This document shows positions 1 through 63,366 of a stretch of DNA of 64,000 nucleotides, piece after piece (position 1 is the stretch's first letter; each line of letters starts with the position of its first letter). The position numbers were made by a program, and so were the translations under genes. The DNA lies in contig CM065801.1 of the NCBI GenBank assembly GCA_033398695.1, forward strand, positions 107,625,170 to 107,689,169, in the 5' to 3' direction. Under the pieces are notes generated by a model. It did no database searches. It was given only the letters and a program-made list of their open reading frames with translations, and had not been told where the DNA came from. The stretch is from Orobanche coerulescens (lineage: Eukaryota > Streptophyta > Magnoliopsida > Lamiales > Orobanchaceae).

Positions 1-1580
1 AAGGCCAAGAATGACTCACCGAGATGAGAGTAATAATGAAATGAATGATAGCTCAACGAAAAGATTGGAACCGTCGTTCCTTATGACTGAAGTGATTAAT
101 TGACAATAACAAGTTTTAATATGATTAATACAATGATGAATGAGTTATGATTATGAATGATCAACAACAAAAGGTATGAATATCCTTTTAACCGAGTAAG
201 AATTAACTTACTCAACACCGATGAAGAATGTCCGTCCACGAACAACGTCCTAAAAGAAGTGTCGGTCGCACGAACAACCTTAATTCAATACAATTACCGA
301 CAATCCGATCAATATACGAATTAAACACGAATATAACGAACTTAAAACGTCGATACGATAAAACTAAGTCCATTGAGGTATTGAAACAAACACGTTGCGT
401 CCAAACTCCGATTGTTTACAATCAAACTTCAATATACCAATATCAAATCCCCAAGAAGTGTTTCAAACCAATAAAACATCTCCAATACGATCAATAATCC
501 GTTATGTATATCCCAAAATGTGATTATAACAACAATTAGTCGAAAATCCCCAATTCCAACTCGATTTACAAGGTGTTCTTGAATAATCCCTCAATAATCC
601 AATGAATCCTTATACAAACTCATAATCATATACATATCCCTTCATATATCATGATTATAACGTCCAAAACATCATATTTCAACACAAAATCGAAGTCCAA
701 AGTGTTGAAGGAATTACCTCTTGATGATCCAAGTGCTTTAATCAGAAGAATACGCGTTAGATTGATTATCAAGCTTCACGATCGAAAGGAGATGAAGAAA
801 ATCAAACACCCAAATGATTTGTGAAGGAAAAACCTTCCCTCAAGCTTCCTCTCTCGGTTGCAAGTGAAAAAATGGGAAAGGAATGGAAGAAATCTTGAAA
901 AAAGCGAATTTAAGGGAGTTGATTGCACGGACACGGCCGTGCCGATCGGCACGGTCGTGTCGCAATGGGCCGACGTTGGCCGGCAGTGACTCGGCCGTGT
1001 CTCGCTTGACACGGTCGCGGCGAGGGCCTCCCGACGATGACTCCGTCCGGCAATGACTTCGGCATGACTCGGCCGTGCGAGGCACACGGTCGGGCGTGCA
1101 AGCGTCGGCCTCGCTTATCCGGAAGGGTTCGACTCGGCCGTGCTGCACGACACGGTCGGGTCTCGGTGCGCACTCGCACTTTCCGGACGAGTACGGCACG
1201 GGCCGTGTCGGGCGACACGGCCGAGTTCGTTCGGCGATGATCGGCCAATGAGCGGTTGAGCTAAAGCGACCATAAGTCTCTCGTCCGACTCGATTCACCG
1301 TTTGAACCATTGGAAAGCTAACTCGATGCTCTATAATATTGCAAAGATTTAGAATTTTTGGAGTTACCAAAAATTAATGGTGATCTAACAAAGTCGAACT
1401 CAAATGAGGAAAGTTGAAACAATGAACAATAACGATACACAACTCGAAGTTTATCCGAACGGTGAACACGGTGAATGAACATGATTGATGAATGATTATA
1501 ATTGAGTGAAAATCCACTGAGTGACAATCACCGAATGAAATTCTTGAATGATAATGACTGAATTACAACCGGGTATTACA
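1..1580 (-). repeat. 3' LTR of element A (partial, left end off-window)
   Basis: The segment matches the 5' LTR at 7217-8782 almost base for base outside the palindrome array. In minus orientation it begins with TGTAATACCCGGTTGTAATT at 1580, directly after a purine-rich tract (1581-1596, AAGGGGAGTA in sense). About 0.7 kb of the LTR, including its 3' terminus, lies beyond the left edge. Small open frames here and the arginine-rich frames at 840-1370 are by-products of the GC-rich array and are not genes. Confidence 0.92.
925..1225 (-). promoter_or_regulatory. CACGGCCGTG palindrome array in U3 of element A 3' LTR
   Basis: About 300 GC-rich bases in an otherwise AT-rich LTR hold many copies of CACGGCCGTG and close variants such as CACGGTCGTG. 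The matching 5' LTR has the same array at 8115-8425. In minus orientation the array lies upstream of a likely transcribed leader starting near 900; a TATA box is not clear here (TTAAATTCGC at about 903-912 is the best candidate). A role in promoter regulation is inferred from position only. Confidence 0.7.
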
Positions 1581-1611
1581 TACTCCCCTTAAAAAGAGTT
1601 TCGTCCCGAAA

Positions 1612-2848
1612 CTAAGGGTCAAACAACTCGGGATAACTCTCCCGCATATTCTCCTCGGTTTCCCCAGTGGCCTCTTCGACTCCGTGTCTAGACCACTGAA
1701 TCTTGACTAAAGGGATCGTCTTGTTCCTCAACTGTTTGATTCGCCGCTCTAACACTCGTACAGGACGCTCCTCGTACGAATGATCATCCGCGATCTCGAT
1801 TTCGTCGAATTGAAGTATGTGACTCGGGTCGGCAACATACTTCCGCAACTGAGAGACGAAACACATTACGAATTCGGCTCAACGCCGGAGGTAACGCCAA
1901 TCGATAAGCTAACTCGCCTACTCGATCCAAAATTTCAAACGGTCCAATGAATCTTGGGCTCAACTTCCCCCGTTTTACGAAACGGAAAAATACCTCGACT
2001 CTGGGATATGTTGACCAAAACATGGTCACCCGTCTCGAACTCTAGTGGTCGACGACGATTATCCGCATACGATTTCTGTCGACTACGAAATGTCAACATA
2101 CGACTCTTGATCAAAGCTACCTTCTCCCGGACGGCTATAAGCATATCGGGCTCGGTGCCGATTGATTCTAACAAGTCATCCTAACACAAAGGAGATCGAC
2201 AAAGACGACCGTACAAGGCCTCGTGAGGTGCCATCTTAATGGAAGCATGCCAACTATTATTATACGTGAACTCGATCAACGGTAGTTGGGCTTCCCAATC
2301 GTCCTTCCAATCGAGGACGCATGCCCTCAACATGTCCTCTAATGTCTGAATAGTTCTCTCTGATTGTCCGTCGGACTGAGGATGAAAGGCAGTACTGAGA
2401 TTAAGCTGAGTTCCCATAGCACGATGAACTGATTTCCAAAAATGTGACACAACCCGTCCGTCACGATCGGAAACAATACTTTTAGGAGTACCGTGCAGTC
2501 TCACTATCTCCTTGATGAACAACTGGGCCAGTCTCTTGGGACTCCACAAATCCTTGATCTCAAGGAAATGAGTTGATTTAGTTAAGCGGTCCGCGATCAC
2601 TCAGATCGTATTTATGCCACGATGACTCGTCGGCAATTCGTGACGAATTCCATAGAAATGTCTTCCCACTTCCATTCGGAATAGGAGCGGTATCGCATAC
2701 TCGGCCGCCGAGGTTCCATCTTGACTTGTTGTGAGTTAAGCATCTCGAAACAAATTCTCGCGACTTCTCGCTTCATATTACTCCACCGGTAATTTTGTTT
2801 CAAGTCCTTGTACATCTTGGGACCGGATGAACAGAATAAGGGTAGCAT
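1612..2848 (-). pseudogene. pol: Element A pol: integrase and chromodomain-like tail, frame-broken
   Basis: The integrase core is open at 2181-2600 in minus frame. It shows DRLTK, then SDRDGR, then HPQSDGQSERTIQ, giving the D, D and E of the retroviral-type integrase triad, followed by EALYGR. The zinc-binding region at 2612-2848 is damaged. The tail at 1612-1866 reads through ERRIKQLRNKTIPLVKIQWS and ends YPELFDP, a chromodomain-like module typical of Tekay/Del elements that is thought to direct integration to heterochromatin. Several frameshifts separate the pieces. Element E has the same region in a less damaged form at 25622-26883. Confidence 0.88.
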
Positions 2849-4160: not shown

Positions 4161-4203
4161 CCAGATAACTCGTCTGGAAATACATCGTCAACCGATGACA
4201 ATG

Positions 4204-4850
4204 ATACTACGAATGATTGAACATTTCGATTGCCCTAGAATGGTCAATCGATAAAAAGAGATACCAATAATGATTGAACAACTCGATTGCCTTAGAAAGG
4301 TCAATCGATGAAGATGATATAATGAATGTTTGAATAACTCGATTGCCTTTGAAAGGCCAATCGATAAAAATAATACAATGAATGATTGAATAACTCGATT
4401 GCCTTAGAAAGGCCAATCGATGAAAATGATACAATGAATGATTGAATGACTCGATTGTCTTAGAAAAGCCAATCGATGGAAATGATACAAGGAATGATTG
4501 AATAACTCGATTGCCTTAGAAAGGCCAATCGATGAAAATGATGCAATGAATGATTGAATGACTCGATTGTCTTAGAAAAGCCAATCGATGGAAATGATAC
4601 AAGGAATGATTGAATAACTCGATTGCCTTAGAAAGGCCAATCGATGTAAATGATGCAATGAATGATTGAATGACTCGATTGTCTTAGAAAAGCCAATCGA
4701 TGGAAATGATACAAGGAATGATTGAATAACTCGATTGCCTTAGAAAGGCCAATCGATGAAAATGATGCAATGAATGATTGAATAACTCGATTGCCCTAGA
4801 AAGGCCAATCGATGAAAATGATACAAAGAATGATTGAATAGTTCGATTGT
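4204..4850. repeat. 56-bp tandem repeat array (about 11 copies) inside element A pol
   Basis: A unit of about 56 bp repeats from about 4204 to 4850. Each copy contains an inverted repeat, CGATTGCC...GGCCAATCG, around a short centre CTTAGAAA. Between about 4432 and 4740 two variants alternate (GTCTTAGAAAAGCC and GCCTTAGAAAGGCC), giving a 112-bp dimer. Element E lacks the array at the equivalent pol position, so it is an insertion. The same 56-bp unit, in the same orientation relative to the element, occurs in the LTRs of element J (30950-31385 and 37140-37560). Confidence 0.92.
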
Positions 4851-11829: not shown

Positions 11830-13093
11830 ATACAGTATCTCTCCGTATCTTTTTCTGTAGGCTTAAGATCAACCTCTCTCCGTATCTTTTCCTATGTGCC
11901 TACGTCCTCTCTCTGTGTCAAACGTGCTTACATCATCTCTCCCTATCTTTTTCTATAGGCTTAAGATCAACCTCTGCGCCTCTTCTTCTATCGGTCTTAG
12001 GGATACCGTTACAATCTCGTCTTCTATCGGTCCGAGATAAACCGTTACTCTCTTGTCTTTATGTCGGTCCAAGATAAACTATTTTCCTTTTCTATCGGAC
12101 AAGGAAGCAACCTATCTAGCTTTATATTGATACTAGACAAACCTCTCTTGGATTTAGATATGATTCTGTTATTATGATCAATGATCCTAATAACACCGAA
12201 TCAATCTACAATCCGTATTTTTTCTCTCGTGTATGATTTAGTGTATGAACACTCAAACACTTTATCAATTAAGCACAATTACAACAACGATATTGAATAT
12301 AGTGATATCTGATCAATATGATATTTGCTTGGAGTTGTTGTGTGTTGAATACCATTATAAGTGGTATTTATAGGCTCCAAAATATCAACTAGCCATTAGC
12401 ATCTTTTGCCTTCATTACGTATGTTATAGCACTTTCGTTAAGTACCTTAAGCTCATTACGTACGTTAGCACTTCCTGTTACGTGCGTTATGCTATATGTA
12501 AATCATTCTAGTAGCTTTTGTCCATCCATTACGTACGTTATCAATTAACTTTAGTCTTCATATCCGTTGCATGATGACCTACTCGATGACATCATCTTCA
12601 ACGGTTCCTTCTTTGAATCATATTCAAACTAATACGCACATTACGTGACTTGTATTACGTACGTTATCTTCATATGTATAGCGTACGTTATTCTTTATGA
12701 GTTGCGTACATTAAGTCATGTTGTCTGCACTCGTCTGCCTTCAGGTGACATTTCATTACATGCATTATCTTGATCTACATTACGGACGTTTGCTGATCAG
12801 GTGACTATTTCTCGTCTAATCTGATTAGTTAGCTTTTCCCATCTGGTCTAATCAGGTGACTTTTCCCATCTGGTCTGATCAGGTGACATTTACTCAGGTG
12901 ACTCTTCAGGTGAGTCTTCAGGTGACTTTCTCTCGTCTGGACTGATCAGGTGACTTTGACTCGTACTATTGATTCCTTTGTTGTTTTGGTTTAATTGTCA
13001 ATTCATCATCAAAACCATCACTAACATTATTAGTTCATCATCAACTCATCATCAAAATCAATTTATTATTATATGAAATATAATACTCCAACA
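11830..13093 (-). repeat. 3' LTR of element G (copia), outer end truncated
   Basis: The segment matches the 5' LTR at 62330-63360. In minus orientation it starts TGTTGGAGTATTA at 13093, directly after the purine tract. The final part of the LTR is missing at about 11830, where sequence of element I begins. A short duplicated CTCTCCGTATCTTTT block lies at 11837-11900. TATA is at 12366-12375 (minus sense CCTATAAATACC). Confidence 0.85.
12410..12790 (-). promoter_or_regulatory. TTACGTACGTTA array in U3 of copia G 3' LTR
   Basis: About ten copies of CATTACGTACGTTA and variants occupy the stretch directly upstream (minus sense) of the TATA box at 12366-12375. Upstream again, 12790-12970 holds about eight copies of TGATCAGGTGAC with variable spacers. 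Position suggests promoter function; no factor is known to me. Confidence 0.75.
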
Positions 13094-13411: not shown

Positions 13412-15065
13412 TGTAACACCCCAATTAGGCGGATATTACAGTGCCATGGATCCCCGACTGGGACCCACCAGGCGAATGAAAATTGATGAATTAAATAATA
13501 TAATTGTAGTACCGAACCACATTATATTACCAAATACTCCAATGATGAGTTTAAGTACAAAGCACCAGGACAATACCGAATACTAGTATATTTTATATGA
13601 AGATAAAATACACAACACTGAATGAAACGGAGTATCCAAATGAAAATCTGCAGCGGAAAAAAAATGACAACAACATGAATGACTGAAAGAATTGGGGCCC
13701 CCTACTAGTATCATTGGGATTCCTCGCCGTCAACATGCTCTTCCCGTGCCTTTGCCTTGCCGTGACCTGAAAACAATATCCCCCAACGGGGTCAGTTACA
13801 CAGAACAACAATCCTCAAGAGTTGAAAATACACAATCATGATATATCTTTAGTTATGAAATATCCTTAGTTATGAATTAAGCTGAAGAGGAGTATCATAG
13901 TACGCCCGTAATGTTCTGTGCAAGTGTACAAGACGAATGACCGGACACACCCGTCCTTGTACCTAATTAGTCTCACGGAGGTAATCGTTACCGTATGCAC
14001 AGTCCAATATATCGGTGACCCAATACATGACCATCGCGTGCTCGACTAAAAATTCCACACATCCGCACCCGGCCACGCAATATGAACCTAGAAGGTCATA
14101 TGAACGAGAATGACCACAATGAATATCGATGAATAATAATCCGACAAGGTCTAGAATGACTCACCGAGATGAAAATAATAGTGAAGTGATTGATAACTCA
14201 ATGAAATGATTGGAACCGTCGTTCCTCGTGAATGAAGTGATTATTCGACAATTACAAGTCTCAATACGGTTAATACAATGATGAATGAGTTATGATTATG
14301 AATGAACAACAACAAAAGGAATGAATATCCTTTTAACCGAGTAAGAATTAACTTACTCAACACCGATGAAGAATGTCCTTCCACGAACAACGTCCTAAAT
14401 GAGATGTCGGTCGCTCGAAACAACCTTGAATAACACAATTACCAACAATCTGCTCAATATATGAATCAAACACGATTATAACGAACTCAAAACATCAATA
14501 CGACTAAACCAAGTTCATCGGGGCATTATATCGAACACGTTGTGTCCAATCTTCAATTGTTAACAACCAAACCTCAATTATACCAATATCAAATCCCCAA
14601 GAAGTGTTTCAAACCAACAAAACATCTTCAATATGATCAATAATCCAAAATGAATATCCAAATTCGTGATTACAACAACAATTAATCGAAAACCCCCAAA
14701 TCCAACTCAATATTCAAAGTGTTCTTGAATAATCCTTCAATAATACATTGAATAATCATACATATCCATAATCATGTGTACTTCACTTCATACAACATGA
14801 TTTTAACGTCCAAAACATCAAATCTCAATACAAAATCGAAATCCAAGATGTTGAAGAAATTACCTCTTGAAGATCCAACCACTTCGATCCGATGAACACG
14901 AGTTAAATAGAGTATCCAAGCTTCCCAAACGAATGAAGATGATGGAAATCTAACACTCAAGTGATTGATGATGGAAAATCCCTCCCTCAAGCTCTCTCTC
15001 TCGGAACAAGGTGAAAGAAATGAAAAACTGAACTGAAAGTCCCGATCAAGTCCTTATAAACTGCC

Positions 15066-15690
15066 GGAAGTTACGACCGTAACTCGGCCTACTTACGGCC
15101 GTAACATCCCAGGTCAACGGACTTACGGCCGTAACCAGCCAGCACGTACGGCCGTAACTCGGCTTCGTCCAGAAACTGCCGACAGCCATACGGCCGTACC
15201 CGCACCAGACTTACGGGAGTAACTCTCCCTCGTCCAAAATACTTGCCGACACCCGATACGCCCGTAACCGGCCAAACTTACGGGCGTAAGCCCCCTTCGT
15301 CGAAACTGACCAGGCACCTTGCCTGTAACGTACGGCCGTATCCGGCCAAGCCTTATGACCGTACTTGCCTCATCTTACGGCCGTATGCCGCAACCCTTAC
15401 GGCTGTAAGTTCTTCTCATCTGACACATCCTGAAAAATACGAATACCCCTTACGGCCGTATCCTGCCCATCTTACGGCCGTAACTCGCCTTCGGCCAAAA
15501 ATGCCTGGGCACCCTGCTCGACACGTACGGCCGTATCCGGCCAAGCCTTACAGCCGTACCTGCGCAACTTACGGTCGTATGCTGCAACCTTACGGCCGTA
15601 AGTCCCATTCGTCCAAAATGGCCTGAAATCAACGAACGCCTGTTACGGCCGTATCCGACAATCCTTACGGCCGTAACTCGTTGCTGGACA
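15066..15690 (-). promoter_or_regulatory. TTACGGCCGTAA palindrome array, E 3' LTR
   Basis: More than fifteen copies of TTACGGCCGTAA or one-base variants (TTACGGGCGTAA, TTACAGCCGTAC, GTACGGCCGTAT) lie in about 620 bp, ending just before the TATA box at 15053-15061 in minus sense. Spacing between copies varies from about 8 to 60 bp, so this is not a simple tandem repeat. Confidence 0.85.
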
Positions 15691-16695: not shown

Positions 16696-16910
16696 ATAGC
16701 TTAGCGCACGCTAAGTACTCGTAGCGTGGCGTTACGCATCGATAGCGCACGCAAACAACGAGCCTAGCGCACGCTAACGATGCATGGTCGGTACCTCACC
16801 GACCCGGCCGACTTCGCCGATGGTCTAGCGTGACGTTACGTACCAAACGTAGCGCACGCTAACGATCGCCGATAGCGCACGTTACACCGCATATCATAGC
16901 GCGGCGCTAT
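16696..16910 (-). promoter_or_regulatory. Second TAGCGCACGCTA cluster, downstream part of C 3' LTR
   Basis: The cluster includes TTAGCGCACGCTAAG, CTAGCGCACGCTAAC and variants, about 800 bp downstream (minus sense) of the TATA-proximal cluster. It lies in what should be transcribed LTR sequence, which differs from the single upstream array of the other families. The counterpart in the 5' LTR is at 23895-24110. Confidence 0.75.
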
Positions 16911-17748
16911 CTTCGCATGGCGCCATCAAAGCAAGAAATCGTTTCTTGCCATGTTTGGAACAACGAAATCTTGCGTGATAATTCATGTTACTTCCATGAA
17001 TACTATGTCTACACCCTCATGAATGATTATACGGATAAAGACAACTTCGATTCAAGGATATGCATGCCAATATAAAACCATAATCTTTTCAGACTTCAAA
17101 TCTTCATAAGAAAAAACTAAATGATAAACGGTTGATATCAACACCTCTATATCAGTCCATATTATCCCACTGAAGTTGATAAACGTCCTACATATACTAG
17201 ATAAATCTTTCCATGATCAGACCTTTAGATTTATCTAACAATAAGGATGTTAACGTCTAGTCCAAGATTATTATGAAATCATCTATTAGATTCGGTTAAC
17301 CATTGATAGAAGCTTCTCTTCACATATTCAGTATACTAAGATTCGAATCATGATGATTATAATCAAGGTATTCCAGGCTTATACAACTCACTATTCCAAA
17401 CATGATATACTTGGATAATTCATCTATGAAAATCCATATCTTGTTAACATGATCATCCAAATCGTTAGAATCCAACTCTAAGTCTGGAGATAGATTGAAC
17501 ATACCTTAAAATGACGAAATCACTGAATCGTAAGGTAAAATCCAACTCCGGTTGGTTGTATGCCCTTCCAAGGTGCTATTCCACTTCCATGAACATTCCA
17601 TGTGGGAACCAATGTATAAATATCAACAATATGTGTTCTAAGTGTATGGGAGTATTTCTACAACTCTCTGAACTCTCAAGATTGAGGAAAGTGCGAAAGA
17701 AATGCAAGCCAACACGGTTGATGTCCCATTTATAATTTCTGCATTGTT

Positions 17749-17970
17749 AGCGCACGCTACTAAGCATCCCTTAGCGTGCGCTAATAATGGTTGACTTCAG
17801 ATTTTGTCCGGTGCGCCGGGAATCTTATCCGACCCATGTCACCGGGCGCACGAGCCACCGCCCCGCTCAATAATTGAGTCCTTAGCGCACGTTACTCATA
17901 CCTGCATAGCGTGCGCTAAAAATGGCCCGATAGCGCGCGTTAAGATACATTCTTAGCGTGCGCTATCACA
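17749..17970 (-). promoter_or_regulatory. TAGCGCACGCTA array with TATA box, C 3' LTR
   Basis: Copies include TTAGCGCACGCTAC, TTAGCGTGCGCTAA, ATAGCGTGCGCTAA and ATAGCGCGCGTTAA. In minus sense the array stops about 10 bp before ATTATAAATGGG (17725-17736), the likely TATA box. Confidence 0.8.
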
Positions 17971-18139
17971 AGGTTGTATGAGCAATTTTGCAAGTTGCTA
18001 TACTTATGTACAATGATATTAATGCACTAAATATCATACTCCAATAATCAAAATCACCAATCCGAAATAATACATGGTTTGAATACGATGAAATACACCG
18101 TAATAAATCCGGATATTACATACTCTCGCTAAAAAGGAG

Positions 18140-23894: not shown

Positions 23895-24110
23895 TAGCGC
23901 ACGCTAAGTACTCGTGTAGCGTGCGTTACGTGCATCGATAGCGCACGCAAACAACAGAGCCTAGCGCACGCTAACGATGCATGGTCAGTACCTCACTGAC
24001 CAGCCAGTTGACTCGCCTGATGGTCTAGCGTACGTTACGTACCAAACGTAGCGCACGCTAACGACTGCTCGATAGCGCACGTTACACTGCATATCATAGC
24101 GTGCGCTATC
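23895..24110 (-). promoter_or_regulatory. Second TAGCGCACGCTA cluster in C 5' LTR
   Basis: At least seven copies including CTTAGCGCACGCTAAG, CCTAGCGCACGCTAAC and ATAGCGTGCGCTAT. It lies downstream of the TATA-proximal cluster and is probably within the transcribed region. A TATA-like GTTTATGAAC lies next to it at about 23868-23878, so a second promoter is possible. Confidence 0.75.
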
Positions 24111-24929: not shown

Positions 24930-25175
24930 CATTTATAATTTCTGCATTGTTAGCGCACGCTACTAAGCATCCCTTAGCGTGCGCTAATAATGGTTGACTT
25001 CAGATTTTGTCCGGGTGCGTCAGCGGGAATCTTATCCGGACCCATGTCCCGCTGGCGCACGAGCCAGCTGCCCCGCCCAATAATTGAGTCCTTAGCGCAC
25101 GTTACTCATACCTGCATAGCGTGCGCTAACAATGGCCCGATAGCGCGCGTTAAGATACATTCTTAGCGTGCGCTA
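24930..25175 (-). promoter_or_regulatory. TATA-proximal TAGCGCACGCTA array in C 5' LTR
   Basis: The array at 24950-25175 contains TTAGCGCACGCTAC, TTAGCGTGCGCTAA, ATAGCGTGCGCTAA and TTAGCGTGCGCTAT. In minus sense it is followed within about 10 bp by ATTATAAATGG (24930-24941), the predicted TATA box. Transcription of C would start shortly after, near 24900. Confidence 0.8.
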
Positions 25176-29404: not shown

Positions 29405-29842
29405 GTAGCGCACGCTACACATTGTAGTTAGCGCGCGCTAATGAGGTGCATGTAACGCACGCAATGATTCAGTACTAGCGCACGCTAGCGCAAGTGAGGC
29501 GCATATCCGAAGGTACCGGGCTGATTTGGGAAATTCGTAGCGCACGCTACGAGTGGTAAGTAGCGACGCTAACTATGCGGGTAACGCACGCTAAGACTTG
29601 AGTAGCGCACGCCAGCGCGCCGCAATGCAGGATGAGGTTACGGACTCCGTGATTTTGGATATCAACTATCGTGTAGCGCACGCTAACATAAGGTTAACGA
29701 CGCTAAGGTCAGCCGTTAGCGCACGCTACCAAAGGTACTTAGCGCACGCTAACGATTGATCGGGGTCTGGACTACCGGTACACGCGTTAGCGCACGCTAA
29801 CATCGAGTTAGCGCGCGCTAAACCGGGACGATATATATAGGG
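29405..29842 (+). promoter_or_regulatory. TAGCGCACGCTA array with TATA box, J 5' LTR
   Basis: About fifteen words of the type GTAGCGCACGCTAC, TTAGCGCGCGCTAA and TTAGCGCACGCTAC occur in 420 bp. The array stops a few bases before GATATATATAGG (29830-29841). Pyrimidine-rich leader CATTTCTTCATTTCTCAATC follows, as expected around a plant transcription start. Confidence 0.85.
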
Positions 29843-31385: not shown

Positions 31386-31461
31386 ATTTGGGACTGTCAA
31401 GGACGATGTCTATCCGTGTGTTACTATCATCGTGTTGGCCGACTCAAGGCAGCACACTATC

Positions 31462-35389: not shown

Positions 35390-38300
35390 TGTAATACCCG
35401 GTTGTGAATTCATTTATTATCATTCAGTAACTGTCACTCAGAAAATTTTTCACTCAGTAATAATCATTCATCATTCATATTGATAACTATGTTCACCATT
35501 CGGCGTATTTTGGGATCATCACCGTTGAGATCGAGCCGAGATTATTGTCATCATCATCATCATGTTTTGATTTTCGGTTTGAGAGGTAGCGCACGCTACA
35601 CATTGTAGTTAGCGCGCTAATGAGGTGCATGTAAGCACGCAATGATTGATACTAGCGCACGCTAGCGCAAGTGAGGCGCAGTCCCGGAAGGTACCGGGCT
35701 GATTTGGGAAATTCGTAGCGCACGCTACGAGTGGTAAGTAGCGACGCTAACTATGCGGGTAACGCACGCTAAGACTTGAGTAGCGCACGCCAGCGCGCTG
35801 CAATGCAGGGCGATGAGGTTCTGGACTCCAGGATTTTGGATATCAACTATCAGGTAGCGCACGCTAACATAAGGTTAACGTACGCTAAGGTCAGGCTATT
35901 AGCGCACGCTACCAAAGGTACTTAGCGCACGCTAACGATTCAGTCAGGGGGGTACTGGACTACCTGGTACACGCGTTAGCGCACGCTAACATCAGGAGTT
36001 AGCGCGCGCTAAACTGGGACAGTATATATAGGACAGTTTGGTCCAACGTTCGTCATTTCTTCATTTCTCAATCATTTCGGACGAGCTCGGGCGATTCAGA
36101 AAGGTCTTTTCGAGATACAATCATCTATCATCATCTTCAACCTTCTAAGTTGGATTAATCATCATCTAAATCAGTTTCATCACTCCAAATCAAGGTAATG
36201 ATTCTTGGATCTAGAATTTCGAGTCTTGGGTGTTTTGCCTTCGATCTCTTCGTGTTAAATCGATATTATGTTGGAATATGTTAGATATGGATTATCTATC
36301 TTGGATACATGTATTTCTACGGATTCATTGGTGTAATTTTCGGAATTTGTGAATAATTGAGGAATTGTTCAAGAACCCTTACGGGTTGACTTTGGAATTT
36401 TGGGGGTTTTCGACTAAATGTTGTTGAAATATCGTTCTAAGTATTCCTATTGGATTATTGATAGTATTCATGAGTTTTTGTGGGTTTGAATCATTCATTG
36501 GGAGTTGGTTTCGGATGTAATTGAGTTTTGGTTGTAAACAATTGGAGATTGTTTACAACGCGTTGTGTAAATGCCCCAATGAGTTTCGGGTATTGTTGTA
36601 TCGACTTTTGAGTTGGTTGTGATTATGCTTGATTCATGTATTAAGAGAATTGTTGGTTTTTGTGTTGTTTAAGGTTGTTCAAGCGGCCGGTAATTTCATT
36701 AAAGACGTTGATCGTGGAAGTACCTTCTCGCCTTCGGTTTGAGGCAAGTTTTATACTTGTACTGGTCAATGAGCTAATGTCATCATGTATGTGTATGAAT
36801 GTGTTGTATCATTCCGAGACTTAGTCTCTTCATGAATTCATTGATATCAAGAGATCGTTCGATACGATACCTTCCAATTTTGCCAAATGTTGATTGTTGT
36901 TCGTTAACGGCCGATTCAAGGCATTGTAGTACTCATTATTAATGTCATTGTCGATAGCCGGTTCGCGGTATCGATGTATCGATTGTTGTTAATATAGATG
37001 TCAATTTAAGACATCGTTCAGATCATTGTTATTCCTGTTTGGATCGTCATTAAAACTGTACAGGCCGATTAAAGGTATTGGCTTATTCATTTCTCACCTT
37101 CATCGTCGGTAACCGATTAAAGGTGCCGAGGCATCATTCGTATCATTGTCATCGATTGGCCGTTCTCAGGCAAATCTAAATGTTCAATCATTCACTGCAT
37201 CATTGTTATCGATTGACCTTTCTAAGGCAATCGATGTATTCACTCATTCATCGTGTCATTGTTATCGATTGACCTTTCTAAGGCAATCGATGTATTCACT
37301 CATTCATCGTGTCATTGTTATCGATTGACCTTTCTAAGGCAATCGATGTATTCACTCATTCATCGTGTCATTGTTATCGATTGACCTTTCTAAGGCAATC
37401 GATGTATTCACTCATTCATCGTGTCATTGTTATCGATTGACCTTTCTAAGGCAATCGAGGTATTCACTCATTCATCGTGTCATTGTTATCGATTGGCCGC
37501 TCTCAGGCAAATCGAAGTGTTCAATCATCCGCTGCATCATTGTTGTAGGTTGTCAGTTCTATGTCAATCGATTTGTTATTTTGGGTCTGTAAAGGACGGT
37601 GTATATACGTGTGTTACTTTCATAGTGTTGGCCGACTCAAGGCAGCACACTATCATTCATTGTGATACGGCCGTGCCGTGGCTTCGCCCTAAGTGTGATA
37701 CGGTGGATGCCGTGGCCGGCCCTCATTGTGATACGGCCGTGCCGTGGCTTCGGCCCTAATTGTGATACGGTGGATGCCGTGGCTTCGCCCTAAGTGTGAT
37801 ACGGTGGATGCCGTGGCTTCGGCCCTCATTGTGATACGGCTTCGTGCCGTGGCCGGCCCTCATTGATCTGACTTGTTACGACTTCAGTGTTTGTGATATT
37901 TGTTAATTTCATTGAACGGCTTGTAAGCCTTTATTATTGTCTGGTAATTTCATTGGAGCCTTCGGGCATTGTGATTCATAATTAATTCAGTCTGGTTTGG
38001 TTCATGTCTTGTAATTCATTGTGGTATTCGTGATTTTGATTCGCCGTCGGGCACTTATGTTCTAACACGTCGAGCAGTGTGATATGCCGTGGGCATAGTA
38101 TTTCACGAATGCTCGGTTCTTACCTTGGTTTGTGAGCATCTCGTATTATTATTATCATTGTACCATTTCATTACGCCTTTGGATGCATATCATGTTATAC
38201 ATGTATTTGATGTTCATTATCTGGATGGTGACCCGTGGGGGTGGAACATGTTTTCATGTTTTAGGTGCTTGCGAGGAGAGAGTTGAGACACAGAGGCATG

Positions 38301-46921: not shown

Positions 46922-47006
46922 ATATTAATTTAAAAATATAAACATTAAAGAAAGCAAATCAAGAGAGTTAGAAGGAGAAAAAAGCAGAGATGACAATCGT
47001 AGACAT

Positions 47007-50000
47007 TACAAAAGAACACATAATAAATCATTTTGTTTTATCTGACCTTTGTCAGACCAACATGACAATCATAACAATTTAACCTCATAACTCGTTACAA
47101 GTATATAACCTAGCCACTAACTTACTGCCCATAATTTTATTCCACGTAATTGCAAGATATTGCACATTAAACTCATAAAATCTTAAAACACTGAACTAAA
47201 AACCAAAATGCAAAAAACTTGGCTATATGTAACAAATATCACATCAACATGACAATCATAACACTTTAACCTTAGAACTCCATACAAGTATATAAACCTA
47301 GCCAATAACTTACTGCAAATTCGTAACATACTTGCAACCTTATTATTCTTTTCTTTAATTAAAGTAAACAAAAATGTAGCAATAAAAGAAAGAATTCGAT
47401 AAGAAATCGCCATTCTCTTGACCGAAAATCACAAAGATCAAGAAAGGGAGCACACAGCTGATGAGACTCAAATTCAGGGACTCGATTTGAATTTTGAGAT
47501 TAAAACCCGTTTAAATTAAAATCGGGATCCTCAAGCTCTTGACAAAGATCCGAGGGACACTTAGGTCTGGCACGCAAGATTAGTCTTGTTTTGGATTTTA
47601 AGGTTTTAATTTGTTTGAGTTTTAATTAATAAGAAAACAAGTCACCACGAAAAATGAATCCAACAAAGAAATAGGCGGCAAGCGAAACAGCAAGTAACAC
47701 TAAACAATTCAAGGACAGCTACTGCGACAATAGAACCGAGCTAGCAGCAATAATTAAAGACGAGGTTCAAGTCAATGGAGCCGTAATCGCCCTCCGAGGA
47801 GTCCTTTAATCAATTAACTTATCTTATGTGTAATCCTAGTTCACTTAAACAGTAAAGAAAATCCAAAATTTACAGGTAATATTTTTTTACTGAGAAATTA
47901 CTGAATCAACTAAAAATTAATGGAACTATACTTACCCAGAAGGCGATAAGATTTTTCACTACCCGCCTTCATCAAAAACCATAAGGAAACATATTAAAAA
48001 TAACATATCAATCTTCAATAAAGAGTTGAGGCAGCATTCGAGATTTTATTTCTAATAAAACAAAATCTACATTGATCAGTTATTGGTACAAAATTAAACA
48101 AATAAAAAGGTTATACAAGCACTAAACACATAGACAAAAAATGGGGCTGTAATATTGACATGTTCTCTGTGGAGACAAGAGAAAATATTTCTCTCAAAGT
48201 TCTCCTCCTTATCTCCGATTACAAAAGAACACATAATAAATCCTTTTGTTTTATCTGACCTTTGTCAGACCAACATGACAATCATAACAATTTAACCTCA
48301 TAACTCGTTACAAGTATATAACCTAGCCACTAACTTACTGCCCATAATTTTATTCCACATAATTGCAAGATATTGCACATTAAACTCATAAAATCTTAAA
48401 ACACTGAACTAAAAACCAAAATGCAAAAAACTTGGCTATATGTATCAAAGATCACATCAACATGAAAATCATAACACTTTAACCTTAGAACTCCATACAA
48501 GTATATAAACCTAGCCAATAACTTACTGCAAATTCGTAACATACTTGCAACCTTATTATTCTTTTCTTTAATTAAAGTAAACAAAAATGTAGCAATAAAA
48601 GAAAGAATTCGATAAGAAATCGCCATTTTCCTGACCGAAAATCACAAAGATCAAGAAACGGAGCACACGGTGATGAGACTCAAATTCGGGGACTCGATTT
48701 GAATTTTGAGATTAAAACCCGTTTAAATTAAAACCGGGATCCTCAAGCTCTTGACAAAGATCCGAGGGACACTTCCGGTCCTGGCAGCGCAAGATTAGTG
48801 CTGTTTTGGATTTTAAGGTTTTAATTTGTTTGAGTTTTAATTAATAAGAAAACAAGTCACCCTGAAAAATGAATCCAACAGCAAAAATAGGCCGCGGCAA
48901 GCGAAACAGCAAGTAACACTAAACAATTCAAGGACAGCTACTGCGACAATAGAACCGAGCTAGCAGCAATAATTAAAGACGAGGTTCAAGTCAACGGAGC
49001 CGTAATCGCCCTCCGAGGAGTCCTTTAATCAATTAACTTATCTTATGTGTAATCCTAGTTCACTTAAACAGTAAAGAAAATCCAAAATTTACAGGTAATA
49101 TTTTTTTACTGAGAAATTACTGAATCAACTAAAAATTAATGGAACTATACTTACCCAGAAGGCGATAAGATTTTTCACTACCTGCCTTCATCAAAAACCA
49201 TAAGGAAACATATTAAAAATAACATATCAATCTTCAATAAAGAGTTGAGGCAGCATTCGAGATTTTATTTCTAATAAAACAAAATCTACATTGATTAGTT
49301 ATTGGTACAAAATTAAACAAATAAAAAGGTTATACAGGCACTAAACACATAGACAAAAAACGGGGCTGTAATATTGACATGTTCTCTGTGGAGACAAGAG
49401 AAAATATTTCTCTCAAAGTTCTCCTCCTTATCTCCGATTACAAAAGAACACATAATAAATCCTTTTGTTTTATCTGACCTTTGTCAGACCAACATGACAA
49501 TCATAACAATTTAACCTCATAACTCGTTACAAGTATATAACCTAGCCACTAACTTACTGCCCATAATTTTATTCCACATAATTGCAAGATATTGCACATT
49601 AAACTCATAAAATCTTAAAACACTGAACTAAAAACCAAAATGCAAAAAACTTGGCTATATGTAACAAAGATCACATCAACATGAAAATCATAACACTTTA
49701 ACCTTAGAACTCCATACAAGTATATAAACCTAGCCAATAACTTACTGCAAATTCGTAACATACTTGCAACCTTATTATTCTTTTCTTTAATTAAAGTAAA
49801 CAAAAATGTAGCAATAAAAGAAAGAATTCGATAAGAAATCGCCATTTTCCTGACCGAAAATCACAAAGATCAAGAAAGGGAGCACACGGTGATGAGACTC
49901 AAATTCGGGGACTCGATTTGAATTTTGAGATTAAAACCCGTTTAAATTAAAACCGGGATCCTCAAGCTCTTGACAAAGATCCGAGGGACACTTCCGGTCT

Positions 50001-50653
50001 GGCAGCGCAAGATTAGTCTGTTTTGGATTTTAAGGTTTTAATTTGTTTGAGTTTTAATTAATAAGAAAACAAGTCACCTGAAAAATGAATCCAACGGCAA
50101 AAATAGGCCGCGGCAAGCGAAACGACAAGTAACACTAAACAATTCAAGGATACCATCTGCGATAATAGAACCGAGCTAGCGGAATAATTAAAGACGAGGT
50201 TCAAGTCAACGGAGTCAGTAATCGCCTCCGAGGAGTCCTTTAATCAATTAACTTATCTTATGTGTAATCCTAGTTCACTTAAACGGTAAAGAAATTCCAA
50301 ATTTTACAGTAATATTTTTTATTGAGAAATTCTTGAATCAACTAAAAATTACTGGAACTATACTTACCTGTAAGGCGATACGATTTTTCACTACTCCGCC
50401 TTCATCAAAACCATAAGGAAACATATTAAAAATAACATATCAATCTTCAATATTGAGTTGAGGCAGCATTCGAGATTTTGTTTCTAATAAAACAAAATCT
50501 ACATTGATCAGTTATTGGTACAAAATTAAACAAATAAAAAGGTTATACAAGCACTAAACACAGAGACAAAAAACGGGGCTGTAATATTGACATATTCTCT
50601 GTGGAGACAAGAGAAAATATTTCTCTCAAAGTTCTCCTCCTTATCTCCGATTA
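47007..50653. repeat. Three tandem copies of a 1.21-kb unit upstream of TNP2
   Basis: Units begin at about 47007, 48220 and 49439, each with ATTACAAAAGAACACATAAT. The 76-residue frame MAISYRILSFIATFLFTLIK recurs at 47183, 48396 and 49615, spaced 1213 and 1219 bp. Each unit also holds CTGGGTAAGTATAG in minus sense, a good splice-donor sequence (the third has a changed version). Copies are about 95% alike or better by eye, the third being most divergent. The repeated frame has a hydrophobic start but no recognised domain, and it may be non-coding. Confidence 0.9.
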
Positions 50654-51074
50654 CAAAAGAACACATAATAAATCTAACACAAAAACTTACCTTAGAAGAT
50701 TCAGTCATCCAGTGATGGCGCGAGCTCGAATCCGTAAGCGTCAGCAACGACTAAGGGACCGAGTTCAAAGATGAATGAACATACGCGCAAAATCGAAGGC
50801 CAACCGAAGAAGAAATTATTCTTGAGATCGAAAAACTTTCAGAGGTAAGGAGAGATGAAGAAATTCGACTGGATGGAGGCGGAGCAGATTAGATTCATTA
50901 AGCGGTGCAAATTAGGTTAAGAGAAGCGGTGTAGAAAGTAAAATATTAAAAGCGTCACATAATATAAATATAAAATTAATAAAACATTAAAATGTCATTA
51001 CATGTACATATAGCAACACTTGTTTAAAAGTGTCACAAAAAAAGTGTCACTATAAGGGTATTTTTCTAGTAGTA
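50654..51074. other. K right end: 5' exon candidate, subterminal repeats and terminal repeat
   Basis: A donor AAGGTAAGTTTTTG in minus sense (about 50680-50693) follows a candidate 5' untranslated exon. Positions 50948-51060 hold AAAAGCGTCAC, AAAAGTGTCAC and AAAGTGTCACTATA, the same subterminal words as the left end. The terminal repeat ends at 51074 with A in place of the last G. Confidence 0.8.
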
Positions 51075-55115: not shown

Positions 55116-57756
55116 TGTAACACCCCAATTAGGCGGATATTACAGTGCCGTGGATCCCGACTGGGACCCACCAGGCGAATGAAAACTGATGAATTAAATA
55201 ATATAATTGTAGTACCGAACCACATTATATTACCAAATACTCCGATGAGGAGTTTAAGTACAAAGCACCAGGACAATACCGAATACTAGTATATTTTATA
55301 TGAAGATAAAATACACAACACTGAATGAAACGGAGTATCCAAATGAAAATCTGCAGCGGAAAATAAATGACAACTTGAATGACTGAAAGAATCGGGGCCC
55401 CCTACTAGTATCATTGGGACTCCTCGCCATCAACATGCTCTTCCCGTGCCTTTGCCTTGTCGTGACCTGAAAACAATATCCCCAAACGGGGTCAGTTATA
55501 CAGAACAACAATCCTCAAGGGTTGAAAATACACAATCATGATATATCTTTAGTTATGAAATATCCTTAGTTATGAATTAAGCTGAAGAGGAGTATCATAG
55601 TACGCCCGTAATGTTCTGTGCAAGTGTACAAGACGAATGAAAGGACACACCCATCCTTGTACCTAATTAGTCTCACACAGGTAATGATTACCGTGTGCAC
55701 AGTCCAATGTATCGGTGACCCAATACATGGCCATCGCGTGCTCGACTAAAAATTCCACACATTCGCACCCGGCCATGCAATATGAACCCAGAAGGTCATA
55801 TGAACGAGAATGACCATAATGAATATCAATGAATAATAATCCGACAAGGTCAAAAATGACTCACCGAGATGAAAATAATAGTGAAGTGATTGATAACTCA
55901 ATGAAATGATTGGAACCGTCGTTCCTCGTGAATGAAGTGATTATTCCACAATTACAAGTCTCAATACGGTTAATACAATGATGAATGAGTTATGATTATG
56001 AATGAACAACAACAAAAGGAATGAATATCCTTTTAACCGAGTAAGAATTAACTTACGCAACACCGATGAAGAATGTCTTTCCACGAACAACATCCTAAAT
56101 GAGATGTCGGTCGCTCGAAACAACCTTGAATAACACAATTACCAACAATCCGCTCAATATACGAATCAAACACGATTATAACGAACTAAAAACGTCAATA
56201 CGAGTAAACCAAGTTCATTGGGGCATTATATCGAACACGTTGTGGCCAATCTTCGATTGTTAACAACCAAACCTCAATTATACCAATATCAAATCCAAAG
56301 AAGTGTTTCAAACCTACAAAACATCTTCAATATGATCAATAATCCAAAATGAATATCCAAATTCGTGAAAACAACAACAATTAATCGAAAACCCCCAAAT
56401 CCAACTCAATATTCAAAGTGTTGTTGAATAATCCTGCAATAATCCATTGAATAATCATACATATCCATAATCATGCGTACTTCACTTCATACAACATGAT
56501 TTTAACGTCCAAAACATCATATCTCAATACAAAATCGAAATCCAAGATGTTGAAGAAATTACCTCTTGAAGATCCAACCACTTCGATCCGATGAACACGA
56601 GTTAAATCGAGTATCCAAGCTTCCCAAACAAATGAAGATGATGAAAATCTAACACAAGTGATTGATGATGGAAAATCCCTCCCTCAAGCTCTCTCTCTCG
56701 GAACAAGGTGAAAGAAATGACAAAATGAACTGAAAGTCCCGATCAAGTCCTTATAAACTACCAGAAGTTACGGCCGTAACTCGGCCTACTTACGGCCGTA
56801 ACATTCCAGGTCAACGGCCTTACGGCCGTAACGGCCCAAAGACGACGGCCGTAACTCGGCCGTCCGAGAAAGCTGACCATACGGTGGTACCCGCACTAGA
56901 CTTGCGGGCGTAACTCGCACTCGTCCAAAATACTTGCCGACACCCATACGGCCGTACCCTCTCACCTTATGGGCGTAACTCGACCGATACGGCCGTAACC
57001 GGCCAAACTTACGGGCAAGCCCCCTTCGTCGAAACTGACCAGGCACCTTACCCGTAATGTACGGCCGTATCCGGCCAAGCCTTGTGGCCGTACTTGCCTC
57101 ATCTTACGGCCGTATGCCGCAACCCTTATGGCCGTAAGTTCTTCTCATCCGACACATCTTGAAAAATACGAATACCCCTTACGGCCGTATCCTGCCCATC
57201 TTACGGCCGTAACTCGCCTTCGGGCAAAAACGCTTGGGCACCCTGCTCGACACATACGGCCGTATCCGGCCAAGCCTTACGGCCGTACCTGCTCAACTTA
57301 CGGCCGTATGCCGCAACCTTACGGCCGTAAGTCCCGTTCGTCCAAAATGGCCTAAAATCAACGAACGCCTATTACGACCGTATCCGACAATCCTTACGGC
57401 CGTAACTCGTTGCTGGACAAGGTGAAAATCCGATAACTCCGATTTCTCTCTACGATTGATGAATGATCCGACATACCATACGTATGTGAAAGTGAACAAG
57501 TCCAACACATGCCAAAGATGATACTTCCAGCACAAGAATACCAATCACAATGAAAATGACAATACTCCCGTCTCGATTGATAAACGGAGATGAAAAGACG
57601 ATCGGTAACTGATACACGATTACAACATGCCAACAGTGAACGCAAATGAATGAATCATGAATGATGAGTGATTAATAATGAGTGAAAATTACTAAGTGAC
57701 AAATACTGACTGATTAATAATGAATGAAAATGAATGAATTACAACCGGGTATTACA
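55116..57756 (-). repeat. Full internal LTR of element E
   Basis: The LTR is 2641 bp. It is flanked on its left by E's primer site and on its right by a purine tract and pol tail, so it serves as 5' LTR of one copy and 3' LTR of another. TATA is at 56750-56760 (minus TTTATAAGG). Hairpin CCCCAAACGGGG is near 55481-55492, followed in sense by TTGTTTTCAGGTCACG. Confidence 0.94.
56768..57415 (-). promoter_or_regulatory. TTACGGCCGTAA palindrome array, E internal LTR
   Basis: Perfect copies lie at 56768-56779, 56790-56801, 56820-56831 and 57201-57212; at least fifteen copies and variants occur in 650 bp. Degenerate forms such as TTATGGCCGTAA are what deamination of methylated CG gives. Blocks around 57060-57240 and 57250-57400 are related, so the array grew partly by segmental duplication. 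Confidence 0.87.
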
Positions 57757-58561: not shown

Positions 58562-60206
58562 GTAGTTGGGTTCTGCCCTCTGGACTACCAGTTATTGCAC
58601 GCTAGGCATGGTCTAACGCATGCTATTTGTGCTTGGTAGCGCACGCTAGCATCGAGTGTAGCGCACGCTAACTTCTCGGTTTTGGGCAGTGGCAGTAGGG
58701 ATTTCTGCTCTCTCGACTAGCAGGTAGCGCACGCTAAGTGTGGCTAGCGCACGTTATAGGTGTTGCATAGCGCGCGCTATGCCAGATGTAGCACACGCTA
58801 TCGATGCAGGTCAGAGGCTACTGGACTACCGGGTGACCTCGTTAGCGCGCGCTATACTCCAGAATTAGCCCACGCTAATTAGACCCAGTATATAAACTGG
58901 GTCAGCCACCTTCTTCGTCATTCTCTTCTCATTTTCCACATTTCTGATGAGAGCACACCATAGAGGCGATTCTGAGGCATTTTGGAACAACTTTTCATCA
59001 TCCATCGCCATTGTCAGCTGGATAACAAGGATTTTTCAACATCTAATCCATTCCTTATCTCCGAATCAATGTAAATTTCTTAGAACCCTAGTTTGGAGAA
59101 TTTTAGGGGATTTTTCTTAGATCCGTCCGATTTATCCGTTTCGAAGCTTGAAATCCTTGAGATTATAATGTATCTACCCTGTGCCCACATTTCCCTTACG
59201 ATTATCCGAATATTTTGTGTATTACTTGAAGTGAAGAGGGTTTGGATGATTTTCAACCTCTATGTGAATTCTTTGAAGATTTATGAATCGTAATAGGGGG
59301 TTTCGGGAGTATTCCTTGAGAACTGAGTATTGATGATTGATTATTGTATTTACTTACGAATCGTTTAGGCCTGAAGTGCGTTCTTGGACCTCTCGAGCTT
59401 GAACACCGTTTTAACTCAGTTCAAATATCTCAAAGGCAAGTATATGTTTATGATTGTACGTTCTCGACTTTGAAAGTGAAGCATATGAATTGTATGATTG
59501 TATATATTCACTCTGGGAGCTTCCGACGAGGCCTCAAAGGGTTCCATTGTCTTTGGTGTGGTTCCATGAATATTTTGGGTTAGCCACTCTGGGAGGGTCT
59601 GACTGGGCCTCAGAGGGTTCTGTTGCCTCTGGTGTGGTTCCATGGTTAATCACGTATGAATTGAAATGAAGTGCTATGAGATTTAGTTATTCCGGAATAC
59701 TAGTCTTGAGTTCGATGAAATGATGATTAAATTTACTTTATTGTCGAGAAGTATTGTGTTTCATATTTGATATATTTGTACTAGCTATTCGACGGCTAAT
59801 CCCTTTTGGGGGAATGACTTTTCATGTATTTCAGGATCCAGGAGAAGAGAAAGGCATGTACTGGGTCAGCACGAAGATGATGGGCAAGAGTGATGCTATG
59901 TCTTGTTTCTGTCTGTTTTTGTACTTTGTCCCATTCGATTTAGTTGTTCTTGGAATGATTTGAATACTCGAGTAATGTTTCACACGTTCATGTTGTTGTG
60001 ACCGGTGTTGCCTTGGGATTGATTCTCGATGTATTGCATTTTGTCTTATCGAATATTGTCTTGGTTGTCAATTTTATTATCTTCCATTAGATTATGTTTA
60101 GACCTTATCGGTTGATGTTCATGGTTCCGCGTATGTATAGCCTTGTGGGTCCCACGACAGGGCTCACAGCACTGTAATATACCCTGAATAACTTGAGGGT
60201 GTTACA
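58562..60206 (+). repeat. Right part of solo LTR F: array, TATA and LTR body
   Basis: The palindrome array at 58594-58880 has GTAGCGCACGCTAG, GTAGCGCACGCTAA, ATAGCGCGCGCTAT and TTAGCGCGCGCTAT. A larger repeat of about 132 bp is visible (TTCTGCCCTCTGGACTACCAG at 58571, a related copy at 58703). TATA (GTATATAAAC) is at 58888-58897. The transcribed body is AT-rich, with TCCCTTTTGGGGGA (59801-59814) followed by TATTTCAGGATCC and the end motif GCACTGTAATATACCC. Open frames here resemble nothing I know. Confidence 0.88.
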
Positions 60207-60900: not shown

Positions 60901-60922
60901 TTTGTTCAAATTTATCATTTCC

Positions 60923-61895: not shown

Positions 61896-62243
61896 AGAAA
61901 TACGGTTGATCTCCTATGGATTTAAGGCACAATATAAAAGTCGAGTGGCCTTACAATTGAGGTGATCGTTCTTCCAATCCTTGTCATTGTACTCTTCGAA
62001 GCTCTTAAGTGACCGTCGGATTTGGTCACAACTTTCGGACCAAGACAGATGAACTTCCAGATTTCTATATCATAGGCACGAATGAAGATCTACATATTTT
62101 TCTACAAAGTCATGTAATTCGATCCGTCGAAAAATGGAGGTCGATTTACAGAAAGACCTTCGACCTAGGAAAATTGAAATGCCATTGGATCTTCCTAGGA
62201 TGTTAAGTCGATTTTTATGGACACCCACTTCGATACCAATTGT

Positions 62244-63366
62244 TGAAAATAATTGGCACCCACTTGGAATGGTGGAAGATAGAGTTATCAAACTCTTCTG
62301 CATTGCGGAAGCGTAATTAAAGTGCGGAAGATAAACGACACAAGATTTATAGAAGTTCGCCCAAATGTGCTTACGTACTCTCTCCGTATCCTTTTCTATA
62401 GACTTAAGATCAATCTATGCGCCTACACTTTTATCGATCCGAGGGATACCTTTATAATCTCGTCTTCTATCGGTTCGAGATAAACTATTACACTCTTGTC
62501 TTTATGTCGGTCTAAGATAAACCATTTTCCTTTTCTATCAAACAAGGAAGCAACCTATCTTACTTTCTATTGGTACTATACAAACCTCTCTTGTATTTAG
62601 ATATGATTCTAACAATGCCGGATTAATGATCCTAATAACACCGAATCAATCTACAATCCGTATTTTTCCTTTCGTGTATGATTTAGTGTACGAACACTCA
62701 AACACTTTTCAATTAAGTATAATTACAACAACGATAATGAATATAGTGATACCTGATCAATATGATATTTGCTTAGAGTTGTTGTGTGTTGAATACCATT
62801 AGAAGTGGTATTTATAGGCTCCAAAACCTCAACTAGCCGTTAACATCTTTTGCCTTCATTACGTACGTTCTAGCACTTTCGTTACGTACGTTAAGCTCAT
62901 TGCGTACTTTAACACTTCCTGTTACGTACGTTACGCTCTATGTAAATCAGTCCAGTAGCTTCTGTCCATCCGTTACGTACGTTATCAATATGTCTATTAC
63001 ATACGTTAACTTTAGTCTTCATATCCATTTCATGCTGGCCTACTCCATGACGTCATCTTCAACAGTTCCTTGTTTGAATTCATATTCAAACTAATTACAC
63101 ACGTTACGTGACTTGTAATACGTATGTTATCTTCACATGTATAACATACGTTATTCTTTATGAGTTGCGTACATTAAGTCATGTTGTCTGCACTCGTCTA
63201 CCTTCAGGTGACATCTCATAACGTACGTTATCTTGATCTGCATTACATACGTTAGCTGATCGGGTGACTATTTCTCGTCTGATCTGGTCAGTTAGCTTTT
63301 CCCATCTGGTCTGATCAGGTGAATTTTCCCATACGGTGTGATCAGGTGACATTTCCTCAGGTGAAA
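62244..63366 (-). repeat. 5' LTR of element G (copia), outer end truncated
   Basis: In minus sense the LTR ends ATTATTTTCA at 62244, next to the primer site TGGTATCG (62231-62238). Array of TTACGTACGTTA words is at 62855-63255 and TATA (CCTATAAATACC) at about 62806-62817. Compared with the copy at 13093 it lacks about 190 bp of its start, ending at 63366 in CCTCAGGTGA, where copia H begins. Confidence 0.86.
62855..63255 (-). promoter_or_regulatory. TTACGTACGTTA array in U3 of copia G 5' LTR
   Basis: About ten copies, including CATTACGTACGTT, GTTACGTACGTTA and ATAACGTACGTTA, with decayed forms such as TTACATACGTTA. The array is directly upstream (minus sense) of the TATA box. Repeats of TGATCAGGTGA follow at 63257-63360. 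Confidence 0.78.

Follow-up and report, generated by a model that had tools for sequence, protein, structure and literature searches.

We analysed a window of 64,000 bp from Orobanche coerulescens (assembly GCA_033398695.1, contig CM065801.1, positions 107,625,170 to 107,689,169), which is a nest of retrotransposons with long terminal repeats (LTRs). LTRs of both Ty3/gypsy and Ty1/copia elements carry arrays of one class of 12-bp CpG palindrome, TWRCG-NN-CGYWA, repeated on a lattice of about 23 bp that in many LTRs runs up to the TATA box. Judged from the sequence, we consider it rather probable that these arrays are binding sites of a dimeric host DNA-binding protein that activates the LTR promoter.

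A CpG palindrome concentrated in the LTRs

The preliminary description of the window, made from its letters, had reduced the array words to RCGNNCGY, and a count against shuffled sequence bears out their enrichment. We counted 129 such words in the window, where dinucleotide shuffles predict 28.8 (4.5-fold), and 297 in 20 random 10-kb stretches of the genome, where they predict 90.1 (3.3-fold); for these and the later random stretches, only parts of ten contigs were sampled. With a centre of one, three or four bases the word showed no enrichment in the window and the 20 stretches (0.57–0.96-fold), and YCGNNCGR was only slightly in excess (1.3–1.4-fold). Among the distances from one CG to another, a distance of 4 was the most frequent in the window and, in the random stretches, second to a distance of 23. 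The arrays exist far beyond chance, and the word itself can be sharpened. The flanks define the palindrome TWRCG-NN-CGYWA (hereafter the 12-mer), with 216 occurrences against 2.15 expected in 200 kb and 50 against 0.7 in seven later stretches (70 kb). Within the frame TWR-xy-NN-x'y'-YWA, the 216 occurrences belong to xy = CG, and each of the 15 other dinucleotides gave 0–15. The 12-mer consists of two abutting inverted half-sites, TWRCGY (or TTACGG), the commonest being TAGCGT, TAGCGC, TTACGT, TAACGT and TTACGG. At its centre CA/TG, TA and CG prevail, and E-type arrays have GC there; among 256 12-mers from 24 random stretches the centre was CA/TG, TA or CG in 237, GC (core CGGCCG) in 15 and another dinucleotide in four.

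Across the 3.646-Gb genome we counted 2,337,506 exact TWRCGYRCGYWA sites, compared with 21,793 for the reversed control, and the 12-mer was present in 21 of the 27 random stretches (266 in total). In the window, 75 of the 77 12-mers and 115 of the 129 RCGNNCGY words lie inside LTRs, which make up 23,288 of the 64,000 bp (36%). Five LTR pairs in the random stretches (L012, L014, L021, L024 and L026, some cut by stretch ends) hold 51 sites in the left repeats, 57 in the right repeats and one in between, and 13 further sites lie outside these pairs (nine in L024 and four in L026). A sixth pair, L013, also cut by a stretch end, has no site in either repeat and seven in between, and no sites were found in two more repeat pairs that are perhaps not LTRs (L018; L021:9319-9806).

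When 45 arrays of at least three RCGNNCGY words were grouped into 20 sequence clusters, 19 of the clusters contained the 12-mer class. Arrays occur in both element types, those with a copia gag (open reading frames matching PF14223 in L021, L027 and L029; the match in L017 is below the cut-off) and those with a gypsy-type pol (SH3_Tf2-1, reverse transcriptase and RNase H; L012, L014 and L026). The exact 23-bp pair TAGCGYRCGCTA-N11-TAGCGYRCGCTA was found 30 times in 240 kb of this genome, in no contig of a bacterial and archaeal collection and in one contig of a viral collection (a piece of GC 0.72); the TWACGYRCGTWA form of the pair was present in one viral contig.

Spacing of the sites and register with the TATA box

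The spacing had been described as irregular, but most steps measure 21–24 bp and the wider gaps are bunched. Among exact TAGCGCACGCTA pairs 14–42 bp apart genome-wide, 208,018 of 242,414 (86%) lie at 23–24 bp, against none for the control. In 18 hand-picked arrays, 125 of the 141 steps of at most 40 bp between adjacent sites (at most one mismatch) are 21–24 bp long, and wider gaps bunch at 51–54 bp (17) and 62–68 bp (12). In the seven later stretches, short steps fall into the same range in 18 of 21 cases between exact sites and in 38 of 45 between near-exact ones.

The spacers within an array are unrelated, in agreement with the earlier view that the arrays are not plain satellites. Their identity is 28.5% within arrays (229 pairs) and 25.8% between arrays, compared with 91% for the sites (1,042 pairs), and it is therefore the sites that are conserved and not a repeat unit. 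Local alignments of six gypsy arrays gave 92% identity at sites and 60% at other bases. Satellite growth or tandem duplication was rejected because of the unrelated spacers; an ancient duplication of which only the sites were kept is possible. That the arrays are functionless old tandem repeats, or an effect of Z-DNA or base composition, we regard as very improbable. Tandem Repeats Finder does report diverged tandem arrays at these places, spacers are slightly more alike within than between arrays, and RCGYRCGY alternates purine and pyrimidine; however, the sites are far better conserved than the spacers, both within arrays and between gypsy families, and E-type sites do not alternate. The Z-DNA effect was discarded since other alternating 8-mers are near expectation (830 against 742; those with at least two CGs, 29 against 40).

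Many arrays end close to a TATA box, as had been noticed before, and we mapped the TATA distances in the window and the stretches. Twenty LTRs were read in element orientation (14 gypsy LTRs with 12-mers, four copia-type LTRs and two of family A without the 12-mer). In nine of the 14 gypsy LTRs the promoter-side array closes with an intact 12-mer and TATAWA follows at 22–25 bp. Another four conform only if a variant TATA (E twice, TTTATAAG; L013, GATAAATA) or a degenerate last site (K) is allowed. Among eight copies of family E, TTATAA stands exactly 23 bp past the last site in six, the exceptions being in L002 and L003. A mechanical count placed 20 of the 48 TATAWA boxes found 12–70 bp after an array site at 22–26 bp (11 of 33 in the first 20 stretches, five of seven in the window and four of eight in the seven later stretches), and eight at 53–55 bp; these eight belong to promoters of copia type, which carry a conserved block, AACGGCTAGTT or a sequence close to it. 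The gypsy TATA box commonly occupies the next slot of the lattice, 22–25 bp on, and the copia box lies about 53 bp past the last site. In copia promoters the AACGGCTAGTT block separates the last palindrome from the TATA box (62831-62841 in the window; also L017, L021 and L027).

The palindromes might also act in RNA or as DNA hairpins, for instance by forming hairpins from which small RNAs arise, which a 2016 paper reportedly proposed for the LTR palindromes of maize Sireviruses. Adjacent sites are complementary to each other, transcripts include the U3 of the 3' LTR, and the F array folds somewhat better than its shuffles (z = -1.99; three of 100 shuffles at least as stable). This folding excess is small, a 2-base centre permits no hairpin inside one site, and RNA pairing would set neither the 23-bp pitch nor the register with TATA, so we consider an action through RNA structure highly unlikely.

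A second motif in the wider gaps

The wider gaps often contain CTGGAC. TACTGGAC is present in wide gaps of gypsy (K, L010, L012 and L026) and copia (I and L021) arrays, and TCTGGACT in F. Counting either strand, 14 of the 29 gaps of 51–54 or 62–68 bp hold CTGGAC, against one of the 12 gaps of 40–49 bp, and the gaps that hold it are spread over nine of the 18 arrays. The motif was found 19–26 bp before a site in 18 of 68, 4 of 16 and 4 of 15 cases, where 0.79, 0.13 and 0.22 were expected. Thirty-eight of 79 copies lie within 80 bp of a 12-mer, a zone that covers 6.8% of the bases, most often 21–24 bp before it. Some copies form inverted pairs with six bases between them (five found, at most one mismatch). 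Copies in arrays of the window are:

29767..29773, + strand: CTGGACT in a 48-bp gap of the F array, 21 bp ahead of the next 12-mer
58822..58828, + strand: (TA)CTGGACT in a wide gap of the K array, 21 bp ahead of the next 12-mer
62949..62955, - strand: (TA)CTGGACT in the copia I array, 22 bp ahead of the next site

Arrays and elements of the window

LTR pairs, primer sites and target-site duplications were located by self-comparison. The window contains element C nested in E, elements F and A, a partial K and a copia element, I. The E interior and a partial interior from 57757 have SH3_Tf2-1 and a chromodomain match just below the Pfam cut-off; C has a reverse transcriptase and 4.84 kb between its LTRs; a copia-type gag (PF14223, 61428-61913) adjoins I. 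Among the best 120 listed relatives of one open reading frame are several named proteins of Tanacetum, a genus of the aster family. Arrays had been ascribed to every major LTR family, which holds for the 12-mer in families C, E, F, I and K and not in family A. The arrays and associated features are the following:

29201-29205 and 38628-38632: target-site duplication of F, GACTA
29406..29820, + strand: array of the F 5' LTR (29206-32454), 11 exact 12-mers TWRCGNNCGYWA
29832: TATATATA box of the F 5' LTR, 23 bp past the start of the last exact site
35587..36011, + strand: array of the F 3' LTR (35390-38627), 10 exact 12-mers, TATA at 36023, 23 bp past the last exact site start
56768..57405, - strand: array of the E 5' LTR (55116-57756), TTACGGCCGTAA-type, seven exact 12-mers, with 12 further RCGNNCGY words in the LTR
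56750-56757: TTTATAAG of the E 5' LTR, in the next slot after the array
15071..15676, - strand: the same TTACGGCCGTAA-type array in the E 3' LTR (13412-15784, resuming after the nested C to 25582), TTTATAAG at 15053-15060
15780-15784 and 25332-25336: target-site duplication of C, TAGCC
17748..17965, - strand: promoter-side array of the C 3' LTR (15785-18120), six exact 12-mers, TATAAA at 17729-17734, 25 bp past the last site
24951..25175, - strand: promoter-side array of the C 5' LTR (22966-25331), six exact 12-mers, TATAAA at 24932-24937
16702..16884, - strand: second array of the C 3' LTR, next slot without TATA
23895..24108, - strand: second array of the C 5' LTR, next slot without TATA
58637..58877, + strand: array of the partial K LTR, six exact 12-mers and a degenerate site at 58866, TATATAAA at 58889, 23 bp past the degenerate site
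62859..63230, - strand: array of the I (Ty1/copia) LTR, four exact 12-mers and further ACGTACGT-type sites
From 62816 downwards: TATAAATA of the I LTR, 54 bp past the last site
12415..12690, - strand: array of the I2 LTR (88% like I), five exact 12-mers and a degenerate last site, TATA at 12367-12372, 54 bp past the degenerate site
931..1020, - strand: three RCGNNCGY words (CACGGCCGTG type) of a family A LTR in steps of 18 and 60, a counter-example

The second phased array lies about 0.7–0.9 kb deeper in the LTR than the promoter array, both in the C LTRs and at L014:2101-2356.

Other features were also observed in the window. The segment 55116-58561 consists, in this order, of an E LTR, a second partial interior and a further partial LTR, and resembles a head-to-tail LTR-interior-LTR product. 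Tandem repeats of 56 bp with ATCGAT are present in the A interior (4189-4849) and, on the opposite strand, in the F LTRs (30945-31378 and 37138-37572), and the units of these two different elements are related. Positions 47005-50674 hold three tandem copies of a unit of 1,213–1,219 bp, about 95–97% alike along their length. An open reading frame at 44625-45455 on the - strand contains DUF4218 (PF13960), a domain known from CACTA-type transposases.

Decay of the CpGs and methylation

The array words had been thought to stand out from a CG-depleted background, a premise that fails because the observed/expected ratio of CpG is close to 1 (window, 1.09; 20 stretches, 1.02). It had also been suggested that the binding factor resists or senses methylation; resistance is unsupported, since the sites themselves decay by CpG transitions. 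Several ACGTACGT-type sites of the I LTR have decayed in this way, and one-mismatch sites near the arrays of the 20 stretches show a CpG-to-TG/CA change in 45 of 71 cases. In nine LTR pairs such decay affected 19 of 202 site CpGs and 143 of 928 other CpGs (Fisher p = 0.027; three and 60 changes, respectively, other than to TG/CA were set aside), only somewhat less at the sites than elsewhere. After insertion the site CpGs behave much like other CpGs, which are probably methylated.

These data bear on the possibility that the sites are silencing beacons, in which a host protein reads the CpG palindromes and recruits the methylation machinery, so that the lattice serves host defence. The symmetric CGs and their decay by CpG transitions indicate that the sites are probably methylated in the germ line, and the word is common to many families, as a general sensor requires. 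However, sites that only harm the element should vanish, yet they are numerous in gypsy and copia LTRs, and the register with TATA points to transcription initiation. We consider this explanation unlikely.

Comparison with known LTR motifs

The preliminary description knew of no account of such a shared design, but a closely similar one was published for Sireviruses (Ty1/copia) by Bousios et al. (2010, BMC Genomics 11:89; PMC2829016). As described in the available text of that paper, the RM boxes are CpG palindromes with at least eight copies per element, whose words vary between elements around a CGG-CCG core (12/13). Most LTR copies are clustered 200–400 bp into the LTR and over the next 300–500 bp, and they form CpG islands just upstream of TATA, which lies on average 37 bp past the island; a regulatory role was proposed with no factor known, and the boxes were reported as Sirevirus-specific (PMC2829016). 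By their sequence the arrays described here, except in family A, are of the same kind, high-copy CpG palindromes in the upper LTR upstream of TATA, but most of them lack two defining features of RM boxes. Most have the core RCGYRCGY rather than CGG-CCG, which only the E-type (CGGCCG) fits, and they are also present in Ty3/gypsy LTRs (SH3_Tf2-1, reverse transcriptase and RNase H), and not in copia Sireviruses only. The 23-bp lattice, the TATA register and the second motif are further differences from the boxes as described in that text, which gives no fixed spacing. The multiple polypurine-tract word of Sireviruses, AGGGGGAG, occurred on either strand four times in L017, twice in L021, four times in L023 and twice near I of the window, and not in L024, L027 or L029; this is a word count only. 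CGG-N0-CCG is in excess in the 27 random stretches (95 against 30 expected) and CGG-N5 to N7-CCG more weakly so (55–63 against 28–35), and Sirevirus-like palindromes with longer centres may exist in this genome too.

In openly licensed papers only, and hence as weak evidence, we found no report of one word class common to gypsy and copia elements, nor of a 23-bp lattice, a TATA register or an occurrence on this scale. A text search of the literature with six 12-mers found one of them in eight papers, and among these matches, as listed, there was none on plant promoters or transposons.

The analogy with the VANDAL anti-silencing proteins, drawn earlier, is loose. Both systems have short motifs at high density in non-coding parts of transposons, and motif density matters for VANC proteins; on the other hand, according to the sections available, the VANC21 word YAGTATTAY has no CG, is not palindromic, keeps one orientation within its tandem repeats and is seldom present in other families (PMC5735166). 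The arrays described here are palindromes with unrelated spacers and not same-orientation tandem duplicates. An element-encoded protein of the VANC kind that binds the arrays and lifts silencing in trans is, in our view, improbable. Such proteins bind to short motifs that cluster in non-coding regions of the elements they come from (PMC5735166), and some sunflower Tekay elements are described as carrying extra open reading frames (PMC11728184). Against this, one word class serves gypsy and copia elements alike, VANC21 motifs are of one orientation and rare in other families, and the 4.84 kb between the LTRs of element C are about the length of a gag-pol.

In the heat element ONSEN and in Tnt1, with its BII boxes, host transcription factors are described as recognising LTR sites and driving transcription (PMC3907296, PMC3316501, PMC12786077). 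The sites found here are likewise in a fixed relation to TATA in many, but not all, LTRs; they differ from those systems, described in the accessible text for single families, in that every site is built on two CGs.

A host factor as the probable reader of the arrays

It had been proposed that the arrays bind a host or an element-encoded factor. A shared factor agrees very well with the dyad, the unrelated spacers, the lattice and the TATA register, and a host factor is favoured over an element-encoded one because the arrays are found in both Ty3/gypsy and Ty1/copia LTRs. A fixed dyad, a fixed pitch, a free spacer, register with TATA and presence in two superfamilies are what cooperatively bound sites of a host factor would predict. 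One protein dimer would occupy each palindrome, and neighbouring dimers, 2.2 helical turns apart, may touch and bind cooperatively. The lambda operators OR1–OR3 are likewise palindromic, with centres 23–24 bp apart and cooperative binding of neighbouring dimers; as they belong to a phage repressor system, the analogy is one of geometry only. The last dimer would contact the TATA-bound machinery at a fixed angle, and a second protein may occupy CTGGAC(T) in the wider gaps. Since each site core contains two CpGs, CG methylation could probably shut a whole array down, or turn it on should the protein favour methylated DNA. The same code would be retained by unrelated elements because all of them exploit one host factor.

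Several observations weigh against binding by a host factor. Family A has the 12-mer in neither LTR and no lattice, and carries CACGGCCGTG words. Five of the 14 gypsy LTRs with 12-mers lack a strict TATAWA 22–25 bp past an intact site, one of them (L026a) not fitting the slot at all; 28 of the 48 TATAWA boxes fall outside 22–26 bp, and C and L014 hold a second array with no TATA in its slot. The conservation advantage of the sites is modest in copia cluster 0 (84% against 71% at other bases) and reversed in the pair I1/I2 (85% against 92%). At 10.5 bp per turn, 23 bp correspond to 2.2 turns, so that neighbours are not exactly on the same face of the helix. CTGGAC shows no overall excess (79 against 73). 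The counts are not independent, because families are related and each element has two LTRs. Finally, we know of no plant factor with this exact palindrome; among NAC, BZR, SPL, E2F and CAMTA sites, none to our knowledge fits the full dyad, the NAC half-site (TTRCGT) resembling one arm with a different dimer spacing.

In its widest form, the host-factor interpretation would mean that a common promoter grammar has arisen by convergence in most gypsy and copia elements of this genome. A single host factor that binds CpG would read it, polymerising as far as TATA along more than two million palindromes in 23-bp phase, so that the mobile half of a 3.6-Gb genome would be under the control of one protein gated by methylation; such a reading is conceivable, but we hold it as doubtful. 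If the host-factor interpretation as such is right, a stereospecific promoter code based on CpG is common to unrelated superfamilies of retrotransposons and stands at more than two million places of a single genome. The arrays would then offer a direct handle on how CG methylation switches LTR elements on or keeps them off, a concrete bait with which to find the host factor and perhaps an explanation of the bursts that enlarged the genome. The palindromes described for Sireviruses in 2010, in a paper that named no reader of them, would widen into a testable general principle.

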